Source of the DNA: Pseudoalteromonas rubra
Lineage (GTDB): Bacteria; Pseudomonadota; Gammaproteobacteria; Enterobacterales; Alteromonadaceae
Direction of reading: 5' to 3'
Length of the DNA: 64,000 bases
Assembly (NCBI RefSeq): GCF_005886805.2
Contig: NZ_CP045429.1
Span: 1,706,501 to 1,770,500 of the forward strand
Positions 5,304 through 52,399 of the stretch are shown here, piece by piece. The notes below the pieces were generated by a model. It worked only from the letters and a program-made list of their open reading frames with translations, did not search any database and had not been told where the DNA came from. The position numbers and the translations under genes were made by a program. The first letter of the stretch is position 1. Each line of letters begins with the position of its first letter.

Positions 5304-5489
5304 GTTTAACTGTTACGCCCAAATATTATTGGACTGATGGGAGGCGGACCAGGTCACATTACATCCGGCAAAATCTGACTTTTAAGCAATTGAAAGTCTG
5401 ACAGGCGGCATAGTTTAAGGATGGTACTTTGCTTCTGTACTGAGTGTGCTGATATAGTGTGGCGGATTGATTTTTACTGGGGTAGCACA

Positions 5490-5807
5490 TTGATTATAAG
5501 AAAAGAGATTGATTATTCGACATATTCACTTAGCGAGCTAGAGGAAGCCTGGCTCAGCGTAGATGATTACGCCTACCCCGAAAGAGCTATTGAGATTTAC
5601 ACGCGACTAAAAAGTATGGAAAAAGAAGAAGAGGGAGACGACGCTCAAAGCCCAAACGAATTTGTGAATCTACTATCTCGCTTTTTCCGGCCGCATACCT
5701 TCGTGGATACCACCTTCAGCGATGAACTGCTTGAACAGAGCAATGCCGAAATGAAAGAAATACGAGTGCAGGCTATGATTGAATCGCGCGGAAAAGTGGG
5801 TAGTTAA
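5490..5807 (+). CDS. small hypothetical protein
   Basis: The frame is open from an ATG at 5421, but that start has AAGG directly against it and gives a Cys/Trp-rich N-terminus. The TTG at 5490 has GGGG about 7 bases upstream and gives a sensible protein of 105 residues beginning IIRKEIDYSTYSLSELEEAW. The YSxxEL...DxxxYPERA pattern at the N-terminus is common in short bacterial proteins with no assigned function. No signal peptide or membrane segment is present. Before the island came in this gene would have been the immediate downstream neighbour of ssrA. Confidence 0.55.
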   Translation: MIIRKEIDYSTYSLSELEEAWLSVDDYAYPERAIEIYTRLKSMEKEEEGDDAQSPNEFVNLLSRFFRPHTFVDTTFSDELLEQSNAEMKEIRVQAMIESRGKVGS

Positions 5808-5841
5808 AAACGTGCTTGAGGATGGACAATCCCATAAAAAA

Positions 5842-5865
5842 AAGCCCCCGCAAATGCGGGGGCTT
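5842..5865. terminator. bidirectional terminator, probably the original ssrA terminator
   Basis: AAGCCCCCGC (5842-5851), loop AAAT, GCGGGGGCTT (5856-5865), with an A-run to the left (a T-run on the minus strand) and TTTATT to the right. On the minus strand it follows the duplicated tmRNA end (CCACCA) by six bases, exactly as a native ssrA terminator would. It now serves the small gene at 5490-5807. Confidence 0.7.
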
Positions 5866-5871
5866 ATTTAT

Positions 5872-5881
5872 TGGTGGAGCT
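5872..5881. repeat. attL-like copy of the tmRNA 3' end
   Basis: TGGTGGAGCT, identical to 15007-15016 (complement of tmRNA ...AGCTCCACCA). After this core the two sites diverge. Short cores of this kind are known for elements that use ssrA as attachment site. Confidence 0.7.
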
Positions 5882-6011
5882 TACGGAAAATGAGTTAAAC
5901 CAATTGTTCGATGAAATGGCGAGAATCGAAGACATTTTTCAGGACACTTCACTTGGTCATAAGAAGCGTAGATTTGAGCCTAAGACCAGCAGGTATAGGG
6001 TAGAAACATAG
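5874..6011 (+). CDS. possible 45-aa ORF starting in the att core
   Basis: GTG at 5874 (or TTG at 5871, ATG at 5916) opens a frame to TAG 6011, with a charged product containing ENELNQLFDEMARIEDIF and ending TSRYRVET. It reads away from the attachment site, so it is not the C-terminal stump of an integrase. No good RBS; no family recognised. It could be a relic of a gene trimmed when the island lost its integrase. Confidence 0.25.
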   Translation: MELTENELNQLFDEMARIEDIFQDTSLGHKKRRFEPKTSRYRVET

Positions 6012-6053
6012 TTTTTGGTTTAGCTGTACTTGCTCAGATTAAGTACATTATAA

Positions 6054-7967
6054 TTATATCTTTATCTTTTTATAATATATTGAATCTAAGTCTTCATTAT
6101 TAATGACCAGGATTTCTTTTTCACTTTTTAATTTGTATGTTTTTTCTATTTCCTGATTTGGCCTTTTTATAAGTATGGAACAACTTGGTGCTGACGGTGA
6201 GGTTGTAATGTGCCACTTAGGAATTGCAGGATGGGAGGTGATATTTATCATTGAATGTGATGTTATTTTAAGGCCTGTTATATCTAATTCGTATACGTCG
6301 CTTTTAGCTATTGTGAGTCTGTTTTGTACTCCTGTAACTTTGCAGCTTGTTAAACATGAATTTGATATATAGCAAAGGTGTATTTCGCTTTTATTGAACA
6401 TGTATTCACAATGAGTTAAACTACATGATGAAAAGTTAGTTGGTTTTTTTGGTAGTATTTTAGCACCTTCCAAATCACATTCTATGAATTCACCATTGGA
6501 TATTTTTATTTCTTCTACTTCTAGTGTTATATTTGGTGCTGGCTTTATTTTGCATTTGTAATATATGTTGTTTTCATTTGTGAATCCCGCCTTTCGAAAC
6601 TCAATGTTTGAATATAGGAAGTTTTTATTTTCTTGGCTTTCTGTGTATATTTCCCCTGAGATTGTTGTTTTTAAATCTGATTTTAAAATGAAGCTAAGTG
6701 TTTTTTTACTTACCTTTCTTTTTCTTTCTCTAGTTTTTAATTGTCCGCCTTTTAAACCTAATGAGAACAAAAACTCCCTTATAGTCAAGTGAGAGAACCT
6801 GAACTCACCATCGGAGTTTTTGTTGAGAAGGGAATTGCTACTAATATCTAGTTTAGAGATTCCTTTTATTATGTTTTCTCTATGTGAAACTAATAGCTCA
6901 ATCGCACTAGGTGCGTGGACAAAGCTACCAATTTTTTCTATAGAAATTGTATTAGTATCGTTATCTGTCAGGTATTCAGCTATCCAAATACAAACTTGTA
7001 GTAAATCTTGTGCCGAAACTTCTATTTTCTTTTTTCTGAGCCTATTTACTTCACGGTTTAGCCATGTCTCTACAAGGCTCTGGTATATGTAGAACTCATT
7101 GTCACCATTTCTCACAGCTTGCATTACGTCTTCTATGTGTGCGAGTAAAAATGGCCTAAATTGTAAAGAGTCCATACACTTTGTGGCTGTGTTGGCTTCC
7201 TGCTCTTTTTTACAAGGAATTTTGTATATTCTCTTTTGAAAAAAGTTACCAAACCTTTTTCTCAGGTAACCCTTTACTTGATGTTCGTCAAACAGAGATA
7301 GGTAATGTAAAGGACATCTATATGAGGATATTCCTATTTGGCCTAGCAAACTGAACGCAGCTTCTTTTGATGGAGGAAAAAACTGCGTACGACAAGTAAT
7401 AATAACCCGATAGAAATTACTGGTACTATCTAAGAGTTCTGTGATTCTTTTTTCTGCATTTTCTCCATTTGCGGTAGGGTCTTCGTCCAGTGAATCGAGA
7501 AGCAGTATTGTATTTGAAGGATCCTGAATCTTTCCTATATCTTCGAGGGAGCTTTTACCCAGTTTTAATAATTTACAATCCCACTTTTGAGGCATGAACG
7601 AAGTGAGGTGCATTAGCTTTATCATTAGTAGCAGTGATGTTTTTCCCATTCCTGCATCAGCTAGAATAAATAGTTGGTTACTTCCGTCTTTTGGCAGAAA
7701 TCCACGATTGAAGAAGGTATTCATTGCTTCGAAGGTGTTTTCACGAACTACGCTAATTGCATTATCTTCGAGAGCATTGGCTGGGTTGATTTGCTGACAT
7801 TTCGGCTCGACATAGAACTTAGCTAAGCGTCTTGGATCTTCAAAGGTATTGCTAAGTTCAATAAGCTCTTTTCCTCGGTCCTTCCTTATTTTTACGAATG
7901 CTTTGGATAGCACACCTGTCACTTTAGAAAGCTGTTTCGCGCTAACAAACTGTGTAATGGGATCCAT
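6054..7967 (-). CDS. NACHT-domain NTPase, probable NLR-like anti-phage defence protein
   Basis: 637 residues from ATG 7967, chosen because AGGA stands 7 bases upstream; a 29-residue extension has no RBS. Walker A ADAGMGKT (103-110), Walker B ILLLDSLDED (154-163) with the D-x-x-D-E form typical of NACHT, and sensor-like VIITCRTQF around 189-197. The middle is helical. The last 200 residues contain short strands with an F/L-x-x-C/N-x-L pattern (GEFIECDLEGAKI), like a pentapeptide or beta-helix repeat sensor. Bacterial NACHT proteins of this size are established single-gene anti-phage systems that recognise a phage product and trigger abortive infection. There is no large N-terminal effector domain. 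It lies at the island edge, divergent from the phage genes and A+T-rich. Defence is inferred. Confidence 0.8.
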   Translation of the reverse strand: MDPITQFVSAKQLSKVTGVLSKAFVKIRKDRGKELIELSNTFEDPRRLAKFYVEPKCQQINPANALEDNAISVVRENTFEAMNTFFNRGFLPKDGSNQLFILADAGMGKTSLLLMIKLMHLTSFMPQKWDCKLLKLGKSSLEDIGKIQDPSNTILLLDSLDEDPTANGENAEKRITELLDSTSNFYRVIITCRTQFFPPSKEAAFSLLGQIGISSYRCPLHYLSLFDEHQVKGYLRKRFGNFFQKRIYKIPCKKEQEANTATKCMDSLQFRPFLLAHIEDVMQAVRNGDNEFYIYQSLVETWLNREVNRLRKKKIEVSAQDLLQVCIWIAEYLTDNDTNTISIEKIGSFVHAPSAIELLVSHRENIIKGISKLDISSNSLLNKNSDGEFRFSHLTIREFLFSLGLKGGQLKTRERKRKVSKKTLSFILKSDLKTTISGEIYTESQENKNFLYSNIEFRKAGFTNENNIYYKCKIKPAPNITLEVEEIKISNGEFIECDLEGAKILPKKPTNFSSCSLTHCEYMFNKSEIHLCYISNSCLTSCKVTGVQNRLTIAKSDVYELDITGLKITSHSMINITSHPAIPKWHITTSPSAPSCSILIKRPNQEIEKTYKLKSEKEILVINNEDLDSIYYKKIKI

Positions 7968-8162
7968 GCTTTGTCCTTGCAACTCAAAGTTTGCATAGAT
8001 ATTAAACGCAACAGAGTAGCAAGGGCAACTTTGACCTTTGTAAAAGCTACTCAAATAGGCATGGTAAGCGCCACTCTATCTGTCACGACACCTCTTGTCG
8101 AATTAGATCTATTCATTGGCTGTAAAATTGCTTTATCTACCACCGAACGAGTCCGCAAACTG

Positions 8163-8570
8163 ATGGTAAAAATAGTTTTGACTGTGACTAATACAGAGTA
8201 TCTATTACTACAAACCTGCAAGGCGGTAAGAGAATTACTATGCACTGGTAAACAGGTGGTAATCGAGTTTAAAGAGTTCAAGGCAAAGCGGTCATTGGCA
8301 CAAAACAGACTCTTATGGAAATGGAACCAGGAGATTGCCAATCACCTGCAAGAACGCTACGGGCAGGAAAATAGCGCTGAGGGTGTTCACGAGGTCCTAG
8401 TACGCAAGAGGTATGGTGTGAGGGTCATTCAGACAGATATTGAAGAACCCATATTAGTAAGAAAGCGCACTCGCAAATTATTAACTAAAGAGTTTACCGA
8501 GTACTTGAGTTGGCTTGAAATGTACTGTGCAGAGTATCTGAAATTAATACTAACTAGGCTTGAAGAATAG
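8163..8570 (+). CDS. ninB: NinB-like phage recombination protein
   Basis: 135 residues. Aligned by eye with lambda NinB (Orf region) from the first residue: a beta-rich start, then KRSLAQNRLLWKW matching the RSLDQNRKLW motif of NinB. The frame is open 64 codons further upstream, but the family length and alignment fix the start at 8163; RBS is weak. NinB binds single-stranded DNA and helps phage recombination with the Red/RecF-type pathways. The second half is divergent from lambda. First of four tightly spaced genes in early-phage order (ninB, ybcO, HTH, Q-like). Confidence 0.7.
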   Translation: MVKIVLTVTNTEYLLLQTCKAVRELLCTGKQVVIEFKEFKAKRSLAQNRLLWKWNQEIANHLQERYGQENSAEGVHEVLVRKRYGVRVIQTDIEEPILVRKRTRKLLTKEFTEYLSWLEMYCAEYLKLILTRLEE

Positions 8571-8599
8571 TATGTGATTGCTATGCATGGGGAGTCTAG

Positions 8600-8899
8600 A
8601 TGTCGTTAGTGAGACAGAAATTAAGAGAAAGCAAAAAGGGTCAGGAGTGTCAGTTCAGACTGCCTGAGATTTGCAATTGGAACCCTGAAACAACAGTATT
8701 GGCCCATGTTGCAAAAGGTTCTGGCATGGGCCAAAAGAGCGATGATATTCATGCAACCTTCGCGTGTATCGCATGCCATGCGGAAATGGATAGAGTTACA
8801 CGAATCTTGGAGAAAGATTTTGTAGATCAGTGCGCTTATGAAGGGATGGTTAGAACACAAACATACAGGCTGTCTCAAGATCTGATTAAGGTGGATTGA
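8600..8899 (+). CDS. YbcO/DUF1364 family putative nuclease
   Basis: 99 residues, closely like YbcO of the E. coli DLP12 prophage: CQFRLPEICNWNPETTVLAH and later FACIACHAEMDRVTR, with Cys/His ligands for a zinc-bound HNH-like fold. GGGG stands upstream of the ATG. In lambdoid phages the gene lies in the nin region between recombination genes and Q, the same position as here. Enzymatic activity is inferred from the fold only. Its stop codon overlaps the next start (TGATG). Confidence 0.8.
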   Translation: MSLVRQKLRESKKGQECQFRLPEICNWNPETTVLAHVAKGSGMGQKSDDIHATFACIACHAEMDRVTRILEKDFVDQCAYEGMVRTQTYRLSQDLIKVD

Positions 8900-9114
8900 T
8901 GACTGGTGGTGAGATCCTCAAAGCTGCGCGAAGTCTTCGTGGCATGACTCAGGACGAAGTCGTCGCTATGTACGGCGGTATAAGCAGAAATATATATCAA
9001 CGGTGGGAAGGCGGGCGTACTGCGGCTCCATATGATGACGTTAAAGCAATCGTTGAACAGGTTTACAAATTAAACCTGGCTAACCTTCTGGCAATGGTGG
9101 AAAGCAATGGATAA
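8899..9114 (+). CDS. small helix-turn-helix protein (Cro/CI-like)
   Basis: 71 residues almost entirely made of one HTH domain: GGEILKAARSLRGMTQDEVVA, recognition helix region ISRNIYQRWEGGR. Start ATG overlaps the ybcO stop by one base and is preceded by AAGGTGG, so translation is probably coupled. It ends eight bases inside the next gene. It lacks a CI-type cleavage or dimerisation domain. In the nin position such proteins are small regulators of unclear target. Confidence 0.65.
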   Translation: MTGGEILKAARSLRGMTQDEVVAMYGGISRNIYQRWEGGRTAAPYDDVKAIVEQVYKLNLANLLAMVESNG

Positions 9115-9397
9115 CTTAAAGAACCTTAGAAAAGAGCTACGCGCCTGGGGTCGTTATTGGGCATCAAAAGAAACCGTTGGCGGGTATGCGAGTAAGTCTA
9201 ATGTTGAGCGTTTACGAGAGTGCTGCGAGCTTGGTGGTGTATTTAGCTCAGATGCTCATCTGTTCAGTCACGGTTCGCAGGGAATCAAAGTCCCCGAGCA
9301 CATTGAAGATATGACTAAAAAGGTGAACCAGCTCAGTGATAACTATAGAAAAGTCATTACTGGCCGGTATGTGAAGGGTTTTGTTGGCAAGAGTTAA
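9107..9397 (+). CDS. antitermination-Q-like protein, C-terminally shortened
   Basis: 96 residues. LRAWGRYWASKETVGGYASKS resembles the WGRW...GYPS opening of phage antiterminator Q (PF06530 type), and DMTKKVNQLSDNYRKVITGRYVKG resembles the later 'p...r.vl...Yv.G' segment. Known members go on for 25-30 residues with an HTH of the SxxxIA type; here the frame ends right after RYVKGF with VGKS. No frame after the stop restores that helix, so the tail was probably lost when the KAP gene was inserted. Antitermination function is doubtful. Confidence 0.5.
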   Translation: MDNLKNLRKELRAWGRYWASKETVGGYASKSNVERLRECCELGGVFSSDAHLFSHGSQGIKVPEHIEDMTKKVNQLSDNYRKVITGRYVKGFVGKS

Positions 9398-9463
9398 GAG
9401 TTTGGGCTGGTTTGCCAGAGATGAGAAGTGTTGAATTTTGGCTCTTGCGGGCTGAATCTTCTC

Positions 9464-11020
9464 TTATTTTGAAATAGGAAGTAGCCTACCTGCAGTTTCA
9501 ATCATTTTTGGGTATTCGTGAATATCTATCAAGCCTAGATGATTACTTAAGTCATGCTTGTATGAATCTGATATTCTTTGGTTATCTCTGTGGGTTATAT
9601 AGTGGCTACGGCCTTTGTTGGAGGCGCTTAGTATTTCCATGACTTCACCAAATGTATTTTGCTCAGGACCTCGACCATTCCAAGTGGGAATCATCATGTT
9701 GTCATTGTTGAGAGTTTCTTTTATTCGCTCCATTTTTGGAGAGGGGGACTCTGTGTGATAGTTAGCATTAAAATGACTTAAAAGCTCCCCATATTCATCT
9801 GGCTTGGTAATTTTTAGAAGGGCCAAAAACGCAAGAGGAACAAAAGTAAGTTCAGCAGCCCTGGTCCGATTTGCTAATGTTACAGACTCAATCAGCGAAA
9901 AGGCTTGCTCCATATCTCTCAAGCCGGCCCCTAGCCCTTTCGCTGTCTGAGCGAATAAATATGCTTTTGTTTTAACGGAGCCAATATCGTTTTCTTTTGG
10001 GTAAAGGGTTCTTGTGCCATTGACCGGTGTCTCTTCTTTGGTTAGTAGGTAGTACGCAAAGTCTGATAGATTTGGCTCGATAAAAGTATATGTTTGGGTA
10101 AAAAAGCGGCTCAAATACCTTTTCGCATTAAACCCACTGCCATAAACCGCCTTGATTGATTCGCTTAGCTGGTCTGAGGCGGTTGTAACAACAAAATAAA
10201 CTCCCCTCGCTGAAAATAAGTGCTTGATTACTTCAAGTAGCTCTATTGCATATTGAGGTCTGCACCGGTCTAGCTCGTCAACAAATATAAATAAAGGTAC
10301 ATTTTCTGATTTGTTTTCTCTTGGCTTTTTTTCATTTTTTGGCTCTTGAATAGCCTTTTTTTGAGTATCAAAACTTGAACTAGCCTCTTTTGCTAAATTC
10401 TCAATATTTCTCACAAAGTCTTTAATGCAACTTTCTACTTTCTTTTGTTCTGCAATTAAATTTTGTGCAAGTTTGTTGGTTACCGACTCAGCTGTTTTTG
10501 ACACTAGCTCACTATTACTTTTTTTATCATTCCCATCATTTTCTGCATTGGTTGTATTATGTGGGTTTTGCTTAGAATCTATCTCTTCATCTTGCTTTTC
10601 AGGGTCCTCATAAATGACCTCTGTTAGTTGGTCATAAGTCAAGCCAGTTAGCTTTTTCACAACAGAGGCGCAGGTAATCGCTCCAACATTATAAAGGGTA
10701 TCACGCCACGAGCTTGATATTTCTCCGCCAGGCATTCTAATAAGATCACTTAGCTGACCTTCTACCGCGGCTATGAAACTAATTAACGGATTTTTAGAAA
10801 AGTCACTTTCCCAAGCATTTACATAGACCACTCTACATCGGCTCTCTGCTTCAAGTTGTTTCTTCCAATTAGTGAGGAAGTAAGTCTTCCCAAATCCCCA
10901 TTCTGCATCAATATTCAATACAAATGAGTCCTTCTTGGTGGCGTAACGATTAATCAAAAAATCGGTTAAGAACTTAGCCTCATCTTTCCTGTTTAGTTTA
11001 TCATCCTGCCAAGCAGCCAT
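9464..11020 (-). CDS. KAP-family P-loop NTPase, probable defence gene
   Basis: 518 residues. Walker A AEWGFGKT (39-46), then the KAP signature VYVNAWESDFSKNPL (65-79), a long polar Lys/Glu/Asn-rich insert between residues 140 and 240, and Walker B PLFIFVDELDRCRP (242-255). KAP NTPases are named after Kidins220/ARMS and PifA, the F-plasmid protein that excludes phage T7. Prophage-borne KAP NTPases are suspected exclusion factors. Usual KAP inserts carry transmembrane helices; here only a weak hydrophobic stretch (112-120) is seen, so a soluble form is possible. AAGGA lies 7 bases before ATG 11020. It opposes the phage genes and sits between the Q-like gene and the late region. Confidence 0.75.
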   Translation of the reverse strand: MAAWQDDKLNRKDEAKFLTDFLINRYATKKDSFVLNIDAEWGFGKTYFLTNWKKQLEAESRCRVVYVNAWESDFSKNPLISFIAAVEGQLSDLIRMPGGEISSSWRDTLYNVGAITCASVVKKLTGLTYDQLTEVIYEDPEKQDEEIDSKQNPHNTTNAENDGNDKKSNSELVSKTAESVTNKLAQNLIAEQKKVESCIKDFVRNIENLAKEASSSFDTQKKAIQEPKNEKKPRENKSENVPLFIFVDELDRCRPQYAIELLEVIKHLFSARGVYFVVTTASDQLSESIKAVYGSGFNAKRYLSRFFTQTYTFIEPNLSDFAYYLLTKEETPVNGTRTLYPKENDIGSVKTKAYLFAQTAKGLGAGLRDMEQAFSLIESVTLANRTRAAELTFVPLAFLALLKITKPDEYGELLSHFNANYHTESPSPKMERIKETLNNDNMMIPTWNGRGPEQNTFGEVMEILSASNKGRSHYITHRDNQRISDSYKHDLSNHLGLIDIHEYPKMIETAGRLLPISK

Positions 11021-11305
11021 AATGAAATCCTTCTAGTTCTTATTTATTAGAATGGTAAGTTATCACCACTAATTATTGTGATCAATCAGGAAGGTTGAAG
11101 GCACTGTTTTGTCCATAATCTGAGGGTTTTTAGGCTTAGCTGGTAAGCAAGTGAGTGTAAACATCATATTTGCGCTAGAATGCACCATATTTGTGGTATC
11201 CATTCGGGCTAAATAAGGCACAATATATATAGGCTCGCGAGAGTCATATACAAAATCCTTCTAAAACTAACCCCACCATCGAGTGGGGTTTTTTATTGGT
11301 GATTT
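11021..11305. other. late-region leader of the prophage remnant
   Basis: No gene is visible. It holds the upstream region of the KAP gene, two imperfect copies of CA(T/C)CATATTTG (around 11163 and 11187), an A+T-rich segment with ATATATATAGG, and the terminator described next. In lambdoid phages the Q gene is followed by a late promoter and an early terminator that Q overrides; the order here fits that, with the KAP gene pushed in between. Confidence 0.35.
11271..11294 (+). terminator. terminator upstream of com
   Basis: ACCCCAC pairs with GTGGGGT across a short loop and is followed by TTTTTT. It precedes the com start by a dozen bases, a place where a terminator makes sense only if it is overridden, as in Q-controlled late operons. 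Confidence 0.7.
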
Positions 11306-11458
11306 ATGCAAGATATACGTTGTGCTTGCGGAAAACTACTGTGCCCTTTAGAGGGCAAAGTAGAGATCAAATGCCCCCGCTGTAAAGCAATAAACAACAT
11401 AGAACGCCGAGAGCGTCACGATAAAAAGGTGACGCATGACAGAACTAACGCTAGTTAA
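11306..11458 (+). CDS. com: Com-like zinc-finger translational regulator
   Basis: 50 residues: IRCACGKLL near the start and EIKCPRCKAINNI in the middle give four Cys in the arrangement of the Mu Com family (PF10122). Mu Com binds the mom mRNA and opens its translation start; homologues often precede a DNA methylase. Here the com frame overlaps the methylase start (11436) by 23 bases, which fits such translational control. It is below the usual size cut-off of gene finders. Confidence 0.7.
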   Translation: MQDIRCACGKLLCPLEGKVEIKCPRCKAINNIERRERHDKKVTHDRTNAS

Positions 11459-12099
11459 CGGCGACTGTGTAGAAGAAAGCAAAAACATTCCAGACAATTC
11501 GGTTGATCTGGTCCTAACAGATCCGCCTTACCTGATTGGTGCAAGCAGTATTGGTAAACCGTCAAAGGCCGGGTCGTGGGCCGACTGGATGAACGTAGCC
11601 CATTTTTTATAAGTCCTGGTTCGAACAAGCAAAGCGTGTGTTGAAGGATACTGGTTACCTGGTGTCATTCTGTAACTGGCGCTCTATGCCTGTGATAACC
11701 AAGGCACTTGCTGATTTAGGTCTATCCATTACCTCAGTACTGGTATGGGATAAGCAGTGTTTAGGCACTGGCCCTAAGAAGGCGTTGCGGCCACGTTACG
11801 AGCTAGTGGTATTCGTAGGCATGAAAGGTGCTGAGATACCCAACCGTTCGCTTTCTGACATATGGGAATGCAAGAAGGTGGCACCCCAGAACAGGGTGAC
11901 TGGCCATCCAGCAGAGAATCCCGTCGAACTATTCCAAAAGCTGATATGTGAAACCACCCGAGAGGGTAGTCTCGTTGTTGATTTCTTTACAGGTAGCGGC
12001 GCCGCCGGTGTAGCTTGCCAAAACACAGGGCGTAACTTTATCGGCTACGAACTGGATCCGCATTGGTACGCAGAAGCGGCGAAACGGCTAAACACGTAA
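11436..12099 (+). pseudogene. phage DNA methyltransferase (N4/N6 type), +1 frameshift in a T6 run
   Basis: From ATG 11436 the frame reads MTELTLVNGDCVEESKNIP then VDLVLTDPPYLIG (catalytic DPPY motif) and stops at 11610 just after the T6 run at 11603-11608. With one T fewer it would continue without a break as NVAHFYKSWFEQAKRV into the long downstream frame, which carries SFCNWR, the SAM-binding DFFTGSGAAG and the closing YELDPHWYAEAAKRL. All parts are conserved, so the break is recent, a phase-variable state or a sequencing error. Intact protein would be about 221 residues, a D12/N4-N6 MTase that protects phage DNA. Without the shift only a fragment lacking the SAM site is made. Confidence 0.75.
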
Positions 12100-12210
12100 G
12101 AGCCAGTCAGTACAGTTAAAACCATTGGGTAGAGGGGACGTACGGATGCGGCCCGCATATCGTTATTAATATATACATATAGGTACATTTACGCCACCTG
12201 TATAAGGTTT

Positions 12211-13962
12211 TTGTCAGTTGATAAATTAAGATATGATAATTTTCATCAAAAGCAAAGGAGATGGGTGGGTTGTACTTTGAAAGCATTTTTTAATTTCATT
12301 TTAATGGTTGCGGTGGGCCTGGTAATTGCTTGGGGCACTAGGTTTTGGTTCAGTGATCGAGCGGATGTAGTTGTCGAGTCATCGTTACTTGTGGAGGTTG
12401 CATTTGCTGCGCCGGACGTGAAGGGGTATCAGCGTTCATATACTATTCGAAATGCAGGTGATGTTGCTGCTCAAAACATCATTGTAAAGCATGCTCCCCA
12501 AGTGAAGGAATACAAAATCACAAAAGCTTCAGACAATGACGAGGTTGCTGATAGTAACAGCGAAGGTGTTATAGACCTCAATTACAAGAACCTTAATCCT
12601 GGCTCAGCGTTTACTTTATTTGTTCTATATGAAGAGCCCACAGAAAATAGTTTGATAGTTAGTCATGCTGGTGGGGTGGTTCGTAGCAGTAGCGATTCTG
12701 AGAAGAAGCAGGATGGTTCTTTCTACTTTTTAATTATGATAGTTATAGGTTCTTTAACTTACTTGTTATTTTCATCAAGAATGTTTGCACTGTCTCGGCT
12801 CTATATTTATCCAAGCAAGGCCGATTTAAAGCGCAAAAGAAGATGGTATGTAACTGAAAAGGAGCATGAGGAAATAGTAAGTCAAAGTATTGCTGTGTTG
12901 CTTGTTCCTGAGTTTTCTTATAGCAAGAGTATAGAAGAATGGAGTTCTATGAAGTTCCTTTTGGATGATGAAATAAGTCAACTTGAACTGACGTCTGAGA
13001 TGAAAGAGTACCTAGTCAAAGGCTTGAATGACATGTTTCTTGCCGAATCTGAGTATTACATTCCAAAAATGGATAGTTTGATGGAGGTTGAGCGGTTATT
13101 TCAAAAGACAAAGCCCGAGCTTATTACAGACACAACATGGAGCGAATTCAAAGAGAGCCTGGTTGAACAATTAGAGTCTTTGGCCAATAGTTGCCGCTAT
13201 GAGTTTGGCCGCATCAATAGGGTTGACCTGATTGCGTCACTGAGTAAGGGTCACGTTGGCGGGATGGAGCGCGATCAGTTCGATCGTTATAAAAAGGAGC
13301 TGCAAAGCTCTCTTTTAAATACTTACATCTCTGAGATTGCTCGAACAGTTCAAATTGGAAACCCACGCTTGGATCTTAACAACCCTGAGGGGTTAGATCT
13401 TTTAAGCGAATATGACAAAGATAAACTTGCATCTCTATTATATGAAATGAATTTTACTCACTTGTTTTACTATCGGCATAGATTCTCTTATAGCGAGGAA
13501 GCTATTAGAGATAGGTTGTCTTCTAGGCCTCAGTGGGTAAATAAGGAGCACTGGGAGCGGGTTGAAGAAGTGGATAAAAGAGCGTTACGTTCATATGCTA
13601 TTGAAAGGTTATTTGAGCGTTTTCAGGATGAGTGCTGGTCTCGACTCAACATATCAGTTAAAGGAACAGAAGCGGAGGCGCTTTTCGATTACCTTGTCGG
13701 GTTGCAAAATCTGAAGCTTGATCTAACTCAAAAGAAGCGGGATTTAGAGGTCAAGCAATTGGATATAGTCAACAGTGAAAAGTCTTGGGATAGCAAGGTT
13801 ACAAGATTACAAAAACAATTAGACATATTGGATGACTTATTAACGGGGCGTCTGACGCTTGGTCGTTTGGAATACCCTGAAGCTATTTTCTCAGAAAAGA
13901 ACTTGGAGAACCTTCGCAAGATAGAAGCTCTCCATCGGCAGCCGGAGGCTGTGTCAGAATAA
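12211..13962 (+). CDS. unrecognised two-TM membrane protein with large cytoplasmic coiled-coil part
   Basis: 583 residues from TTG 12211 (TAAGG 6 bases upstream; no ATG until codon 32). Basic N-terminus, TM1 about 24-44, an external domain of about 125 residues with a sheet-like YTIRNAGDVAAQNIIVKHAP segment, TM2 about 171-189, then 390 cytoplasmic residues, mostly charged helices, with a likely coiled coil at 500-540. I recognise no family. It has its own A+T-rich upstream region and its own terminator, and sits between the methylase and the lysozyme, the arrangement of a phage moron. A membrane-anchored sensor/effector acting in superinfection exclusion is a reasonable guess and nothing more. 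Confidence 0.6.
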   Translation: MSVDKLRYDNFHQKQRRWVGCTLKAFFNFILMVAVGLVIAWGTRFWFSDRADVVVESSLLVEVAFAAPDVKGYQRSYTIRNAGDVAAQNIIVKHAPQVKEYKITKASDNDEVADSNSEGVIDLNYKNLNPGSAFTLFVLYEEPTENSLIVSHAGGVVRSSSDSEKKQDGSFYFLIMIVIGSLTYLLFSSRMFALSRLYIYPSKADLKRKRRWYVTEKEHEEIVSQSIAVLLVPEFSYSKSIEEWSSMKFLLDDEISQLELTSEMKEYLVKGLNDMFLAESEYYIPKMDSLMEVERLFQKTKPELITDTTWSEFKESLVEQLESLANSCRYEFGRINRVDLIASLSKGHVGGMERDQFDRYKKELQSSLLNTYISEIARTVQIGNPRLDLNNPEGLDLLSEYDKDKLASLLYEMNFTHLFYYRHRFSYSEEAIRDRLSSRPQWVNKEHWERVEEVDKRALRSYAIERLFERFQDECWSRLNISVKGTEAEALFDYLVGLQNLKLDLTQKKRDLEVKQLDIVNSEKSWDSKVTRLQKQLDILDDLLTGRLTLGRLEYPEAIFSEKNLENLRKIEALHRQPEAVSE

Positions 13963-13986
13963 TTTGGAAATTTCCAACATCTTGAG

Positions 13987-14011
13987 AAGCCCGCATCACG
14001 CGGGTTTTTTT
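13987..14011 (+). terminator. terminator of the two-TM protein gene
   Basis: AAGCCCGC, loop ATCAC, GCGGGTTTTTTT. It separates the membrane protein gene from the lysozyme gene. Confidence 0.8.
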
Positions 14012-14033
14012 ATGCCTAAACAAAGGTAACAAC

Positions 14034-14423
14034 ATGACAATGAACGCTATAGAGCAGATAAAAAAACATGAGTGCTTCAGAGATAAGCCTTATCTCTGCA
14101 CGGAAGGCTGGTTAACTATTGGTTTTGGCCTGAATTTAGACGCCGGCATAACAGAGGAAGAAGCTGAGGTGATCTTGTTCATGAGAGTTGAAGGTATCCG
14201 TAAGCGCCTAGCTAACGCAATTCCTTGGTATGTAAATCTCAATGTAAACATGGCATATAACCTGGGTGTTACCGGACTAATGGGGTTTGCCAAAACACTA
14301 ACGCATATTCGGACGGGCGACTACATAAAAGCATCAGAAGAAATGCTTGAGAGTCGGTGGGCTAAGCAAGTACCAAATAGAGTGCAAGAACTAGCAATTC
14401 AAATGCAGCAAGATGGGTTGTGA
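14034..14423 (+). CDS. phage lysozyme (GH24 endolysin)
   Basis: 129 residues. Catalytic Glu13 (KKHECFRDKPY), Cys22 and Thr28 (LCTEGWLTIGFGLN) keep the E-8x-C/D-5x-T spacing of T4-type lysozymes; Cys instead of Asp is a known variant. Later NMAYNLGVTGLMGF and ESRWAKQVPNR are typical. It cleaves the MurNAc-GlcNAc bond of peptidoglycan. There is no N-terminal anchor or signal, so release needs a holin; the small TM protein downstream may be that. RBS AAAGG before ATG. Confidence 0.9.
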   Translation: MTMNAIEQIKKHECFRDKPYLCTEGWLTIGFGLNLDAGITEEEAEVILFMRVEGIRKRLANAIPWYVNLNVNMAYNLGVTGLMGFAKTLTHIRTGDYIKASEEMLESRWAKQVPNRVQELAIQMQQDGL

Positions 14424-14507
14424 TTGGGGTTATAAAGCAGCTTATACCCTTGAATTAAAGTTCCAATACATTGCGATCTGTTAGCATCATTTAAAAAGAA
14501 GCACGGA

Positions 14508-14538
14508 AACCGTCATTCCGGTTGCATCTTTTAGATGC
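14508..14538 (+). other. two abutting hairpins between lysozyme and holin-like gene
   Basis: AACCG (14508-14512)/CGGTT (14519-14523) is followed directly by GCATC (14524-14528)/GATGC (14534-14538). A third, CCCGCC/GGCGGG, lies near 14598-14613. The stretch 14424-14675 codes for nothing I can see. It could be structured leader RNA or terminator relics. Confidence 0.35.
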
Positions 14539-14675
14539 GGTGACTCATTGAATAGGCTGGGAAGCATAGAAGAAAGGCTACTAATAAAACAAATCCCGCC
14601 AAGTGGCGGGTCATAAGTCTCTTGCGATGTTGACGGATCCAAGAGGTGACAGTAATTAATTAGGATAATTAATGC

Positions 14676-14864
14676 ATGGGAAACGAAACAAAAACTAACG
14701 TAGATTTGACAGCCAAAGCAGAGGCTAAAGTGAATATATTACCTAGCAAAGATGGTTCAGATGTTTTCTTAAAACGAATAGGTTTCGGGATCGCGGCTTT
14801 GTGTTTACTGGGTGGGGTTGCAGGGGTAATCACTGCGGCATTTCCCAACGGAGTCTTTGGTTGA
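14676..14864 (+). CDS. small single-TM protein, holin-like
   Basis: 62 residues: polar N-terminal half with TAKAEAKVNILPSKDGS, then one hydrophobic segment IGFGIAALCLLGGVAGVITA (about 36-55) and a short tail FPNGVFG. TTAGGA lies upstream. Position next to a lysozyme that lacks a secretion signal suggests a class III-like holin or other lysis helper, but the sequence itself shows only a membrane segment. Confidence 0.5.
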   Translation: MGNETKTNVDLTAKAEAKVNILPSKDGSDVFLKRIGFGIAALCLLGGVAGVITAAFPNGVFG

Positions 14865-14956
14865 TTAGGTAGGAGGCGTTCAGTGTTGGGACAATGGTAC
14901 ATGAAGAAGCCTAAAAAACTGGATGGAAACTGGACACTTTCCATCAGACACAAAAA

Positions 14957-14987
14957 AGCCAGTTAAAGATTATCTCTCTAACTGGCT
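14957..14987. terminator. present ssrA terminator (brought by the island)
   Basis: AGCCAGTTA (14957-14965) pairs with TAACTGGCT (14979-14987). On the minus strand it ends in a T6 run, and it begins 20 bases past the tmRNA 3' end, so it terminates ssrA. It also ends the phage late unit on the plus strand (GTTTTAT). Confidence 0.8.
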
Positions 14988-15006
14988 GTTTTATAACACT
15001 TTAAAG

Positions 15007-15016
15007 TGGTGGAGCT
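15007..15016. repeat. attR-like site within the ssrA 3' end
   Basis: TGGTGGAGCT, the second copy of the 10-bp direct repeat found at 5872-5881. It forms the last bases of tmRNA, which are therefore unchanged by the integration. Confidence 0.7.
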
Positions 15017-15363
15017 GGGGGGATTTGAACCCCCGTCCAGAAAGCGTCGACCTTCGGTCCTACATGTTTAGTATCGTCTTTTGGTTAACCTTTAAGTCTC
15101 GGACGAACACGATAAGTAAAGGCGAGGCCGCTTAAATTTAGCCCTTCAACCCCGGCCAGGGTTTCCGTAGCGATCTTGTGTAGGGTGACACTCATAATCC
15201 AGATCCACAAGCATATCTTGGCAGAGTGCTAGCGGGCTATTATGCCGCTAGAGCGTAGTTATCGTCGTTTGCGATTACTTTAAATGCGGCTTTTTTACGA
15301 GGCCAACCGCCCCTCGACATGCACCTCAGGCTTCATGAATCCTGTCGAATCCTAATCAGCCCC
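15007..15363 (-). ncRNA. ssrA: transfer-messenger RNA (tmRNA)
   Basis: 5' end GGGGCTGATTAGGATTCGAC and 3' end ...CAGCTCCACCA; GGGGCUG and CAGCUCC form the acceptor stem. The T-arm is GGGGGTTCAAATCCCCC. The tag frame at 15240-15272 (complement) reads ANDDNYALAA followed by TAA, so the tag with the tRNA-borne Ala is AANDDNYALAA, a variant of the usual ANDENYALAA. It rescues stalled ribosomes together with SmpB, encoded at 22920-23399. The 3' end is the attachment site of the island. Confidence 0.97.
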
Positions 15364-52146: not shown

Positions 52147-52232
52147 GCGAACGTGGTGGAATTGGTAGACACGCCATCTTGAGGGGGTGGTGAGCATAGC
52201 TCGTGGGGGTTCAAGTCCCCCCGTTCGCACCA
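52147..52232 (+). tRNA. tRNA-Leu (GAG)
   Basis: 86 nt with encoded CCA. Acceptor GCGAACG/CGTTCGC; D-arm TGGTGGAATTGGTAGACA; anticodon stem CCATC/GGTGG with GAG at 52181-52183; long variable arm GAGCATAGCTC; T-arm GGGGGTTCAAGTCCCCC. Directly after secG, the place of leuU in E. coli. Confidence 0.96.
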
Positions 52233-52237
52233 AGCTC

Positions 52238-52260
52238 AGAGCCAGCGATGCACTGGCTCT
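52238..52260 (+). terminator. hairpin after the first tRNA-Leu
   Basis: AGAGCCAG/CTGGCTCT with a 7-base loop, followed by CTCATC; no T-run, so it may be a processing or partial termination element between the two tRNAs. Confidence 0.4.
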
Positions 52261-52313
52261 CTCATCAGATATGAGATAAGTCGTAACTAAGCGACAATGC
52301 ATTACACCGAATT

Positions 52314-52399
52314 GCGAATGTGGTGGAATTGGTAGACACGCCATCTTGAGGGGGTGGTGAGCATAGCTCGTGGGGGTTCAAGTCCCCCCATTCGCACCA
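52314..52399 (+). tRNA. tRNA-Leu (GAG), second copy
   Basis: 86 nt, identical to the copy at 52147 except in the last acceptor pair, where C-G is replaced by T-A on both sides (GCGAATG/CATTCGC). The pairing is kept, so both genes look functional. Anticodon GAG at 52348-52350. Confidence 0.96.

Follow-up and report, generated by a model that had tools for sequence, protein, structure and literature searches.

Introduction

Lambdoid morons are extra genes that lie between the genes of a phage, bring their own signals and have an odd base composition. Cargo of a comparable kind is the subject of this study: in a 64,000-nucleotide stretch of the Pseudoalteromonas rubra chromosome (contig NZ_CP045429.1, positions 1,706,501 to 1,770,500; hereafter the window), a 9,135-bp island at the 3' end of ssrA, the tmRNA gene, holds phage genes and three extra genes, which encode a STAND-type NTPase, a KAP NTPase and a membrane protein of no known family that we call ORPHAN. 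Like morons, these genes stand between phage genes with an odd composition, and one of them is closed by a terminator; unlike morons, the cargo has two defined slots and a shared terminator type, and promoters of its own find no support here, promoter-like sites being no more frequent than in shuffled sequence.

The tmRNA site is a known hotspot of defence genes, described as hotspot 9 in Escherichia coli (PMC10121019) and as elements I23, I44 and I55 in Pseudomonas (PMC12595487); in the available portions of both reports these are mobile elements that carry defence genes and sit at the 3' end of tmRNA, as in our island. The island differs in its host genus, in having no integrase among its scanned open reading frames (ORFs), and in appearing to be composed of two elements. 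P2-like phages and P4-like satellites are also defence hotspots, in which, according to the accessible text of Rousset et al. 2022 (PMC9122126), fixed positions of temperate phages hold different, exchangeable defence genes. The slots described here are similar in this respect, and differ in belonging to a siphophage-type Pseudoalteromonas family, in their location, one at the late promoter and the other within the late operon, and in that the defence activity of their cargo is predicted. The literature searched (titles and abstract openings, with subscription journals mostly outside it) contained no description of either slot or of ORPHAN. We consider it likely that the island combines what is left of a lambda-like siphoprophage in ssrA with a piece of a second ssrA element, and that the phage family has two cargo slots whose cargo acts against phages.

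The island and its sister prophage

The island at 5872–15006 is real and bounded. In a same-genus genome with an empty site (G153), the host DNA left of the island (5306–5881, 93% identity) is contiguous with the tmRNA gene (15007–15363, 100%) with a 10-bp overlap, from which the insert size follows. The overlap is TGGTGGAGCT, with copies in the window at 5872–5881 and 15007–15016. The phage genes of the island encode NinB, YbcO, a helix-turn-helix (HTH) regulator, a Q-like protein (phrog_27007), a Com-like zinc ribbon, a DNA methyltransferase and a lysozyme, and their order suggests a lambda-like arrangement; a Q role for the phrog_27007 gene is suggested by its position and by the leader described below. 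Pfam and PHROGs scans of 10 island ORFs detected no integrase, head, tail, replication, primase, packaging or satellite core gene, which agrees with the initial annotation of this DNA, where virion and replication genes were said to be gone. That annotation had also placed three A+T-rich cargo genes at three separate points of a prophage remnant, two of them opposed to the phage genes. All three are present (Table 1), with STAND and KAP on the strand opposite to the phage genes. The A+T richness holds clearly for STAND (G+C content 0.351) and KAP (0.392) and is only mild for ORPHAN (0.409), which equals NinB, the phage genes ranging from 0.409 to 0.495 and the window standing at 0.462.

The evidence that two of these genes are phage cargo comes from another genome of the genus (G205), where a 47-kb prophage extends from the tmRNA end (C2:2868708) to C2:2915870, where the 3' end of tmRNA is repeated. 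It encodes the large and small terminase subunits, portal, major head protein, tape measure, integrase, a single-stranded DNA-binding protein and an O-like replication gene, with PHROGs assigning such phage functions to 8 of the 10 ORFs scanned, and it appears to be a complete siphophage-type prophage in the same orientation as the window remnant. Gene order and strands are alike in the two: Q-like gene, KAP (opposed), Com, methyltransferase, ORPHAN, terminator and lysozyme. Identity is 97% for both the HTH regulator and the methyltransferase, 94% for the Q-like gene, 89% for YbcO, 80% for lysozyme, 73% for ORPHAN and 43% for KAP. The DNA is 83% identical over 3.2 kb that include ORPHAN and 90% identical over 0.8 kb; identity drops sharply where KAP begins and where it ends, with some stretches inside the gene still alignable at 70–74%. 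We read KAP and ORPHAN as having arrived with the phage, as its cargo before decay, because homologues occupy the same two positions in the G205 prophage.

Each end of the G205 prophage also carries extra genes (L038 1403–4615; L133 5843–8039), including a RES-domain gene near ssrA. By its distal attachment (att) site, L133 8878–12474 encodes a 1,198-aa protein that, from our reading of its sequence, resembles a reverse transcriptase with a nitrilase-like C-terminus.

Two cargo slots in a phage family

Loci with the methyltransferase block were gathered from 108 Pseudoalteromonas genomes and IMG/VR, yielding 11 distinct loci, the window included. Each retains genes for the Q-like protein, Com, methyltransferase and lysozyme, with an interrupted methyltransferase in two of them, the window and L136. 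Only L113 among 18 IMG/VR viral loci has the block, and of the 17 that were dropped, 16 share NinB and YbcO and one shares YbcO only. Loci of G199, G200, G181 and G243 have only NinB and YbcO in common and were dropped for that reason. One contig (G226) gave L131, L188 and L199 and was counted once, as was the contig of L113 and L198; L200 and L201 carry an identical IMG/VR source number. L203, a 43% partial match, was excluded from the slot counts, and L135 (G246), which is without Com and methyltransferase, was kept outside the 11.

This phage family has two standing cargo slots around the Com–methyltransferase block. Slot A, between the Q-like gene and Com, is filled in 5 of the 11 loci, and slot B, between the methyltransferase and lysozyme, in 3; both are filled in two loci and neither in five. 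Slot A holds KAP in the window and in G205, pentapeptide-repeat proteins of 530 aa in L113 and 435 aa in L131 (each with two C-terminal hydrophobic segments) and, in L134, a nuclease-like 193-aa protein with a weak match to PDC-S02; it is empty in L136, L141, L197, L200, L201 and L202. Slot B holds ORPHAN in the window and G205, and in L136 a 66-aa ORF plus a 291-aa ORF with three hydrophobic stretches, and is empty in the remaining eight loci. Different cargo at the same position of related phages, which characterises a prophage defence hotspot, is thus found at both slots. A twelfth locus, L135, has two pentapeptide/transmembrane-type genes in place of Com and methyltransferase, one of which scores for pentapeptides.

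The slots are marked by conserved signals. The leader just 5' of Com is conserved in 11 of 11 loci and comprises a CATAAT box (CACAAT in the window and G205), a GCTTG-GAGAGCT-like stretch, and a G+C hairpin with a T run, the stem of which differs in sequence between loci yet still pairs when judged by eye. Given the gene order, this leader resembles a late promoter of the Q type that has an early terminator, and slot A lies directly upstream of it. A short motif that precedes slot-B cargo is present in the window, G205, L134, L136, L141 and L202 and not in L113, L131 and L197. A terminator of one type (CCCGC...GCGGG-T7) lies ahead of lysozyme in the window, G205 and L136 and is missing in the six slot-B-empty loci examined; the L136 cargo is unrelated to ORPHAN, so this terminator type accompanies two unrelated cargoes. 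The window copy, which the initial annotation had rightly assigned to the third cargo gene, has a folding energy of -15.4 kcal/mol (z -4.5), with 0 of 200 shuffles as good.

Several further observations concern these loci. The pentapeptide/transmembrane proteins (L113 10964–12556, L131 8063–9370, L135 6682–9369) form a family that shares a conserved end (...FLIGLGLRNRFRI) and a pair of hydrophobic segments near the C-terminus; it fills slot A in three prophages, with two copies in one, and Pfam detects pentapeptide repeats in 3 of 4. PADLOC gave no match for them. In G177, a 450-aa AAA/STAND-like ATPase (L134 9241–10593) sits between HTH and YbcO, a further cargo position. In L136 (G231), the methyltransferase is stopped by an in-frame stop codon, so its loss is not special to the window.

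The KAP NTPase of slot A

The initial annotation of a KAP NTPase between the Q-like gene and the late region held up: the protein matches PF07693 at 108.3 bits (cut-off 20), with intact Walker A (AEWGFGKT) and Walker B (FIFVDELD) motifs. It also matches the PADLOC model PDC-S20 with an E-value of 2.3e-80 (269 bits), and its G205 homologue does so at 7.9e-83; this match was judged without a cut-off, as the tool gives none. PDC-S20, QatA and PifA (PADLOC names) and Tmn (PMC11846954, in its available text) resemble it in the KAP P-loop domain with intact Walker motifs. The match to QatA reached 35.2 bits against a curated cut-off of 600, and its neighbours are phage genes; QatB, QatC and QatD were not searched for. 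Tmn has two transmembrane (TM) segments, and the accessible part of the same report states that its mechanism is unexplored (PMC11846954); the window KAP, by contrast, has none by hydropathy, no 19-residue window exceeding 1.6 (maximum 1.38). In a tree of 23 KAP proteins from the genus, those of the window and G205 are sisters (99/98), with G206 next (98/97) and end branches of about 1 change per site.

ORPHAN in slot B

The two-TM protein of no family that had been noted 5' of lysozyme is ORPHAN, whose start (12277) was taken from a 561-aa protein match and the G205 alignment. Searches of Pfam, PHROGs, PADLOC and NCBIfam assigned it to no family. Its layout comprises a TM segment near residues 1–25, a beta domain of ~120 residues, a second TM segment at ~147–167, and then ~390 mostly helical residues, this last part being read from a low-confidence model. 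The ratio of nonsynonymous to synonymous divergence (dN/dS) relative to G205 is 0.22; therefore the protein has been kept.

ORPHAN was detected in 4 of the 108 genus genomes (the window, G205, G221 and G202), all four sharing the two-TM plan, and two pieces of it occur in one genome of another family. The G221 copy (25% identity) lies ~4 kb from two ORFs that we read as integrase-like, and the G202 copy (22%) lies 1 kb downstream of a tRNA-Ser gene amid chromosomal-looking genes. Because of this distribution in phage and non-phage settings, ORPHAN is cargo and not a fixed phage part.

The STAND NTPase and a probable second ssrA element

The remaining cargo gene had been labelled a NACHT NTPase. 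Its product is probably a STAND-type NTPase, with Walker A (ADAGMGKT) and Walker B (ILLLDSLDE) motifs; the NACHT label does not hold, the match to PF05729 scoring 14.8 bits, below the 26.7 cut-off. The nSTAND3 score (25.3 bits) is just below its cut-off of 27.2, and several close homologues carry nSTAND3. It resembles the STAND/NACHT immune NTPases in its P-loop NTPase core and in having relatives with a repeat-type C-terminal region, and differs from them in falling below both Pfam cut-offs. Its match to EruA reached 22 bits against a cut-off of 1000, and PADLOC gave no match at E 0.1. A protein search found 462 homologues; among the best 120, many have pentapeptide repeats, and the top relative, 64% across 65% of the query, belongs to P. 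rubra. Within the genus, matches occur in 4 of 108 genomes including the window, the only strong one being in G234 (49%), where the gene lies between chromosomal-looking genes.

The STAND gene, with the left part of the island, probably comes from a second ssrA element, since the adjoining island end and the left end of the G175 ssrA island share 126 bp at 96% identity. That island (L053 8689–18660) encodes an HSP90-like ATPase whose C-terminus weakly resembles Shedu, together with an SF1 helicase, an SMC-like ATPase (below cut-off) and a CAP12/TIR effector, and by our reading also has integrase and IS3-type transposase genes. We considered STAND as part of the phage and rejected this, as none was found in the G205 stretches searched and the adjoining end matches the G175 island.

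Defence-type genes at ssrA across the genus

All 108 genus genomes have ssrA, and we counted 18 with a linked partial second copy of its 3' end. A PADLOC scan covered 76 of 169 ssrA-island ORFs of at least 200 aa, from 13 of 21 loci; 73 models were matched, 25 of which were inspected. Matches included AriA, GajA, Old, ThsB, HEC-01A, NsnA/B and others at E 1e-10 or better, with one or two ORFs per model inspected; these are counts without a control set, and we do not claim enrichment. That other genomes carry defence-type genes at ssrA agrees with the initial suggestion that the window cargo is defensive, and antiphage function is a likely prediction for these genes.

Decay of the remnant

The Q-like and methyltransferase genes of the remnant are frameshifted and its lysozyme is without seven residues kept in G205, whereas the three cargo genes are whole. 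By our count, there are 3 damaging events in ~836 phage codons and 0 in ~1,716 cargo codons; the chance that all three fall at random in the phage part is ~0.035, or 0.11 with the two frameshifts alone. The methyltransferase frameshift falls within a run of Ts, and a sequencing error could account for it. Selection for the cargo, which the initial annotation had proposed from the survival of these genes, is thus favoured by the pattern of damage and disfavoured by small numbers and by the higher dN/dS of ORPHAN; a hint of selection after decay is suggested.

Proposed mechanism and alternative explanations

We propose that a lambda-like siphoprophage integrated in ssrA and decayed beside a piece of a second ssrA element. 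Cargo in slot A would spare the late operon, as the slot lies upstream of the putative late promoter, and the slot-B terminator may be read through by antiterminated RNA polymerase and so be harmless inside the late operon. In a lysogen, the cargo would probably be expressed from its own promoters and act against other phages. KAP, by analogy with KAP defence proteins, may be a P-loop NTPase that reacts to infection by stopping growth or phage replication. ORPHAN would sit in the inner membrane, its beta-sandwich in the periplasm and its helical domain in the cytoplasm, and might block entry of related phages (superinfection exclusion) or relay a signal inward, and STAND may be an infection-sensing NTPase from the neighbouring element.

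The initial annotation had instead suggested that a prophage remnant later received three separate insertions of defence genes, as the three A+T-richer genes at three points, two of them opposed to the phage genes, and the absence of a STAND match from the G205 stretches searched would lead one to expect. The KAP and ORPHAN homologues in the same two slots between the same flanks in G205 largely refute this for both genes, and with STAND probably belonging to a second element, independent insertion into a remnant is improbable. It is similarly doubtful that ORPHAN and other slot-B genes are late phage proteins such as lysis accessories: ORPHAN is co-directional with and adjoins lysozyme in the window and G205, and hydropathy marks the product of the unrelated L136 slot-B gene as a membrane protein too, but ORPHAN is absent from 9 of 11 family loci, a terminator separates it from lysozyme, and its G221 and G202 relatives lie amid genes that do not look phage-like. 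We rejected a lysis role for ORPHAN on these three grounds. The initial annotation had named one finding that would count against it, namely the same genes as fixed parts of complete phages with virion or lysis roles; relatives do occur in the complete-looking G205 phage, and such roles are unlikely because the slots are empty in 5 of 11 loci and ORPHAN relatives are found outside phages. Least probable is that the island is a phage satellite of the phage-inducible chromosomal island (PICI) or P4 kind. It is small (9.1 kb), sits at ssrA and combines phage-like and defence genes, and P4-like satellites are among the elements that the available text of PMC10121019 places at the E. coli tmRNA site; yet three of its phage genes are damaged, its genes are ordered as in the late-regulation segment of a full phage, and the 10 ORFs scanned include no integrase, primase or packaging gene. 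Without satellite core genes among those ORFs, this explanation was rejected.

Several points weigh against a phage remnant with two defence slots. The defence activity of STAND, KAP and ORPHAN is a prediction, PDC-S20 itself being a candidate system only. The window and G205 KAP proteins are only 43–48% identical in three alignments with saturated synonymous sites, their flanks being 89–97% identical; synonymous divergence (dS) is 0.13 for HTH, 0.34–0.35 for methyltransferase and Q-like, 0.84 for YbcO and 0.74 for ORPHAN. Because KAP differs far more than its flanks, the slot-A gene was either swapped for a related allele or changes fast, and common descent within the slot is not certain; the window KAP was also flagged as a long branch whose placement in the tree of 23 is unsure. 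The window NinB is not in G205, which has a DUF1367 gene in its place, and this makes the remnant a mosaic that did not descend directly from the G205 phage. The G175 island was judged from Pfam matches of 4 ORFs and our own reading, so that its non-phage nature is not proven. Promoter-like sites at 5800–15100 number 9 vs 19.9 in shuffles, fewer than expected, with no promoter supported, and the slot-B promoter candidate is poorly kept in G205. Finally, measured by divergence from G205, the phage genes have dN/dS values of 0.03–0.10 vs 0.22 for ORPHAN, and are thus the more constrained.

Feature coordinates and additional observations

Table 1. Features of the ssrA island and its borders, in window coordinates.
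Feature	Position	Strand	Evidence
Distal att-core copy TGGTGGAGCT, left island limit	5872..5881	no strand	G153 empty site
Left-end segment common to G175 ssrA island	5882..5997	no strand	96% over 126 bp (5872–5997) to L053 8689–8814
STAND NTPase, cargo C; C-terminal region holds pentapeptide repeats in many relatives	6054..7967	-	nSTAND3 25.3 bits, homologues, Walker A/B
NinB/Orf recombination gene	8163..8570	+	PF05772 and phrog_72; start chosen by us
YbcO HNH nuclease	8600..8899	+	PF07102 100 bits; 89% identity in G205
Small HTH regulator	8896..9114	+	HTH_19; 97% in G205
Q-like late regulator (putative), frameshift-truncated: 96 aa vs 122 aa in G205	9107..9397	+	phrog_27007
KAP NTPase, PDC-S20 type, slot-A cargo	9464..11020	-	Pfam, PADLOC, Walker A/B
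Conserved late-promoter-like leader with terminator 11269–11290, 5' of Com	11205..11305	+	11-locus alignment, terminator scan
Com-like zinc ribbon	11306..11458	+	PF10122 20.6 bits, below 22.9 cut-off
DNA methyltransferase, frameshifted; intact in G205	11436..12099	+	PF01555 on C-terminal piece
ORPHAN: TM, beta-sandwich domain, TM, helical domain; slot-B cargo	12277..13962	+	
Terminator closing slot B	13984..14010	+	similar terminator in G205 and L136
Phage lysozyme, 7 residues fewer than G205	14034..14423	+	PF00959, alignment
tmRNA gene ssrA; att-core copy 15007–15016	15007..15363	-	

Terminator-like hairpins at 5800–15100 number 20 vs 6.9 in shuffles, about threefold. Between lysozyme and ssrA, a 62-aa ORF with a hydrophobic stretch (14676–14864) has no match in Pfam, PHROGs, NCBIfam or the loci compared. 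A tandem pair of tRNA-Leu (gag) genes lies at 52147–52399.

Implications

A tentative extension, which we hold as possible more than probable, is that ORPHAN founds a new membrane-anchored family for phage defence or superinfection exclusion (TM, periplasmic beta-sandwich, TM, cytoplasmic helical domain) that moves between a phage slot and chromosomal islands. The two slots, A upstream of the late promoter and B with a terminator overridden by antitermination, may then be a general way to carry defence genes with the late operon unharmed.

These results correct the reading of independent insertions into a remnant, and show that a decaying prophage is able to leave cargo genes in the chromosome. 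The two exact slots can be mined for candidate defence genes, such as the pentapeptide-TM proteins, ORPHAN and the small membrane protein. With them, the defence hotspots known in temperate phages come to include a siphophage-type family from a marine genus.

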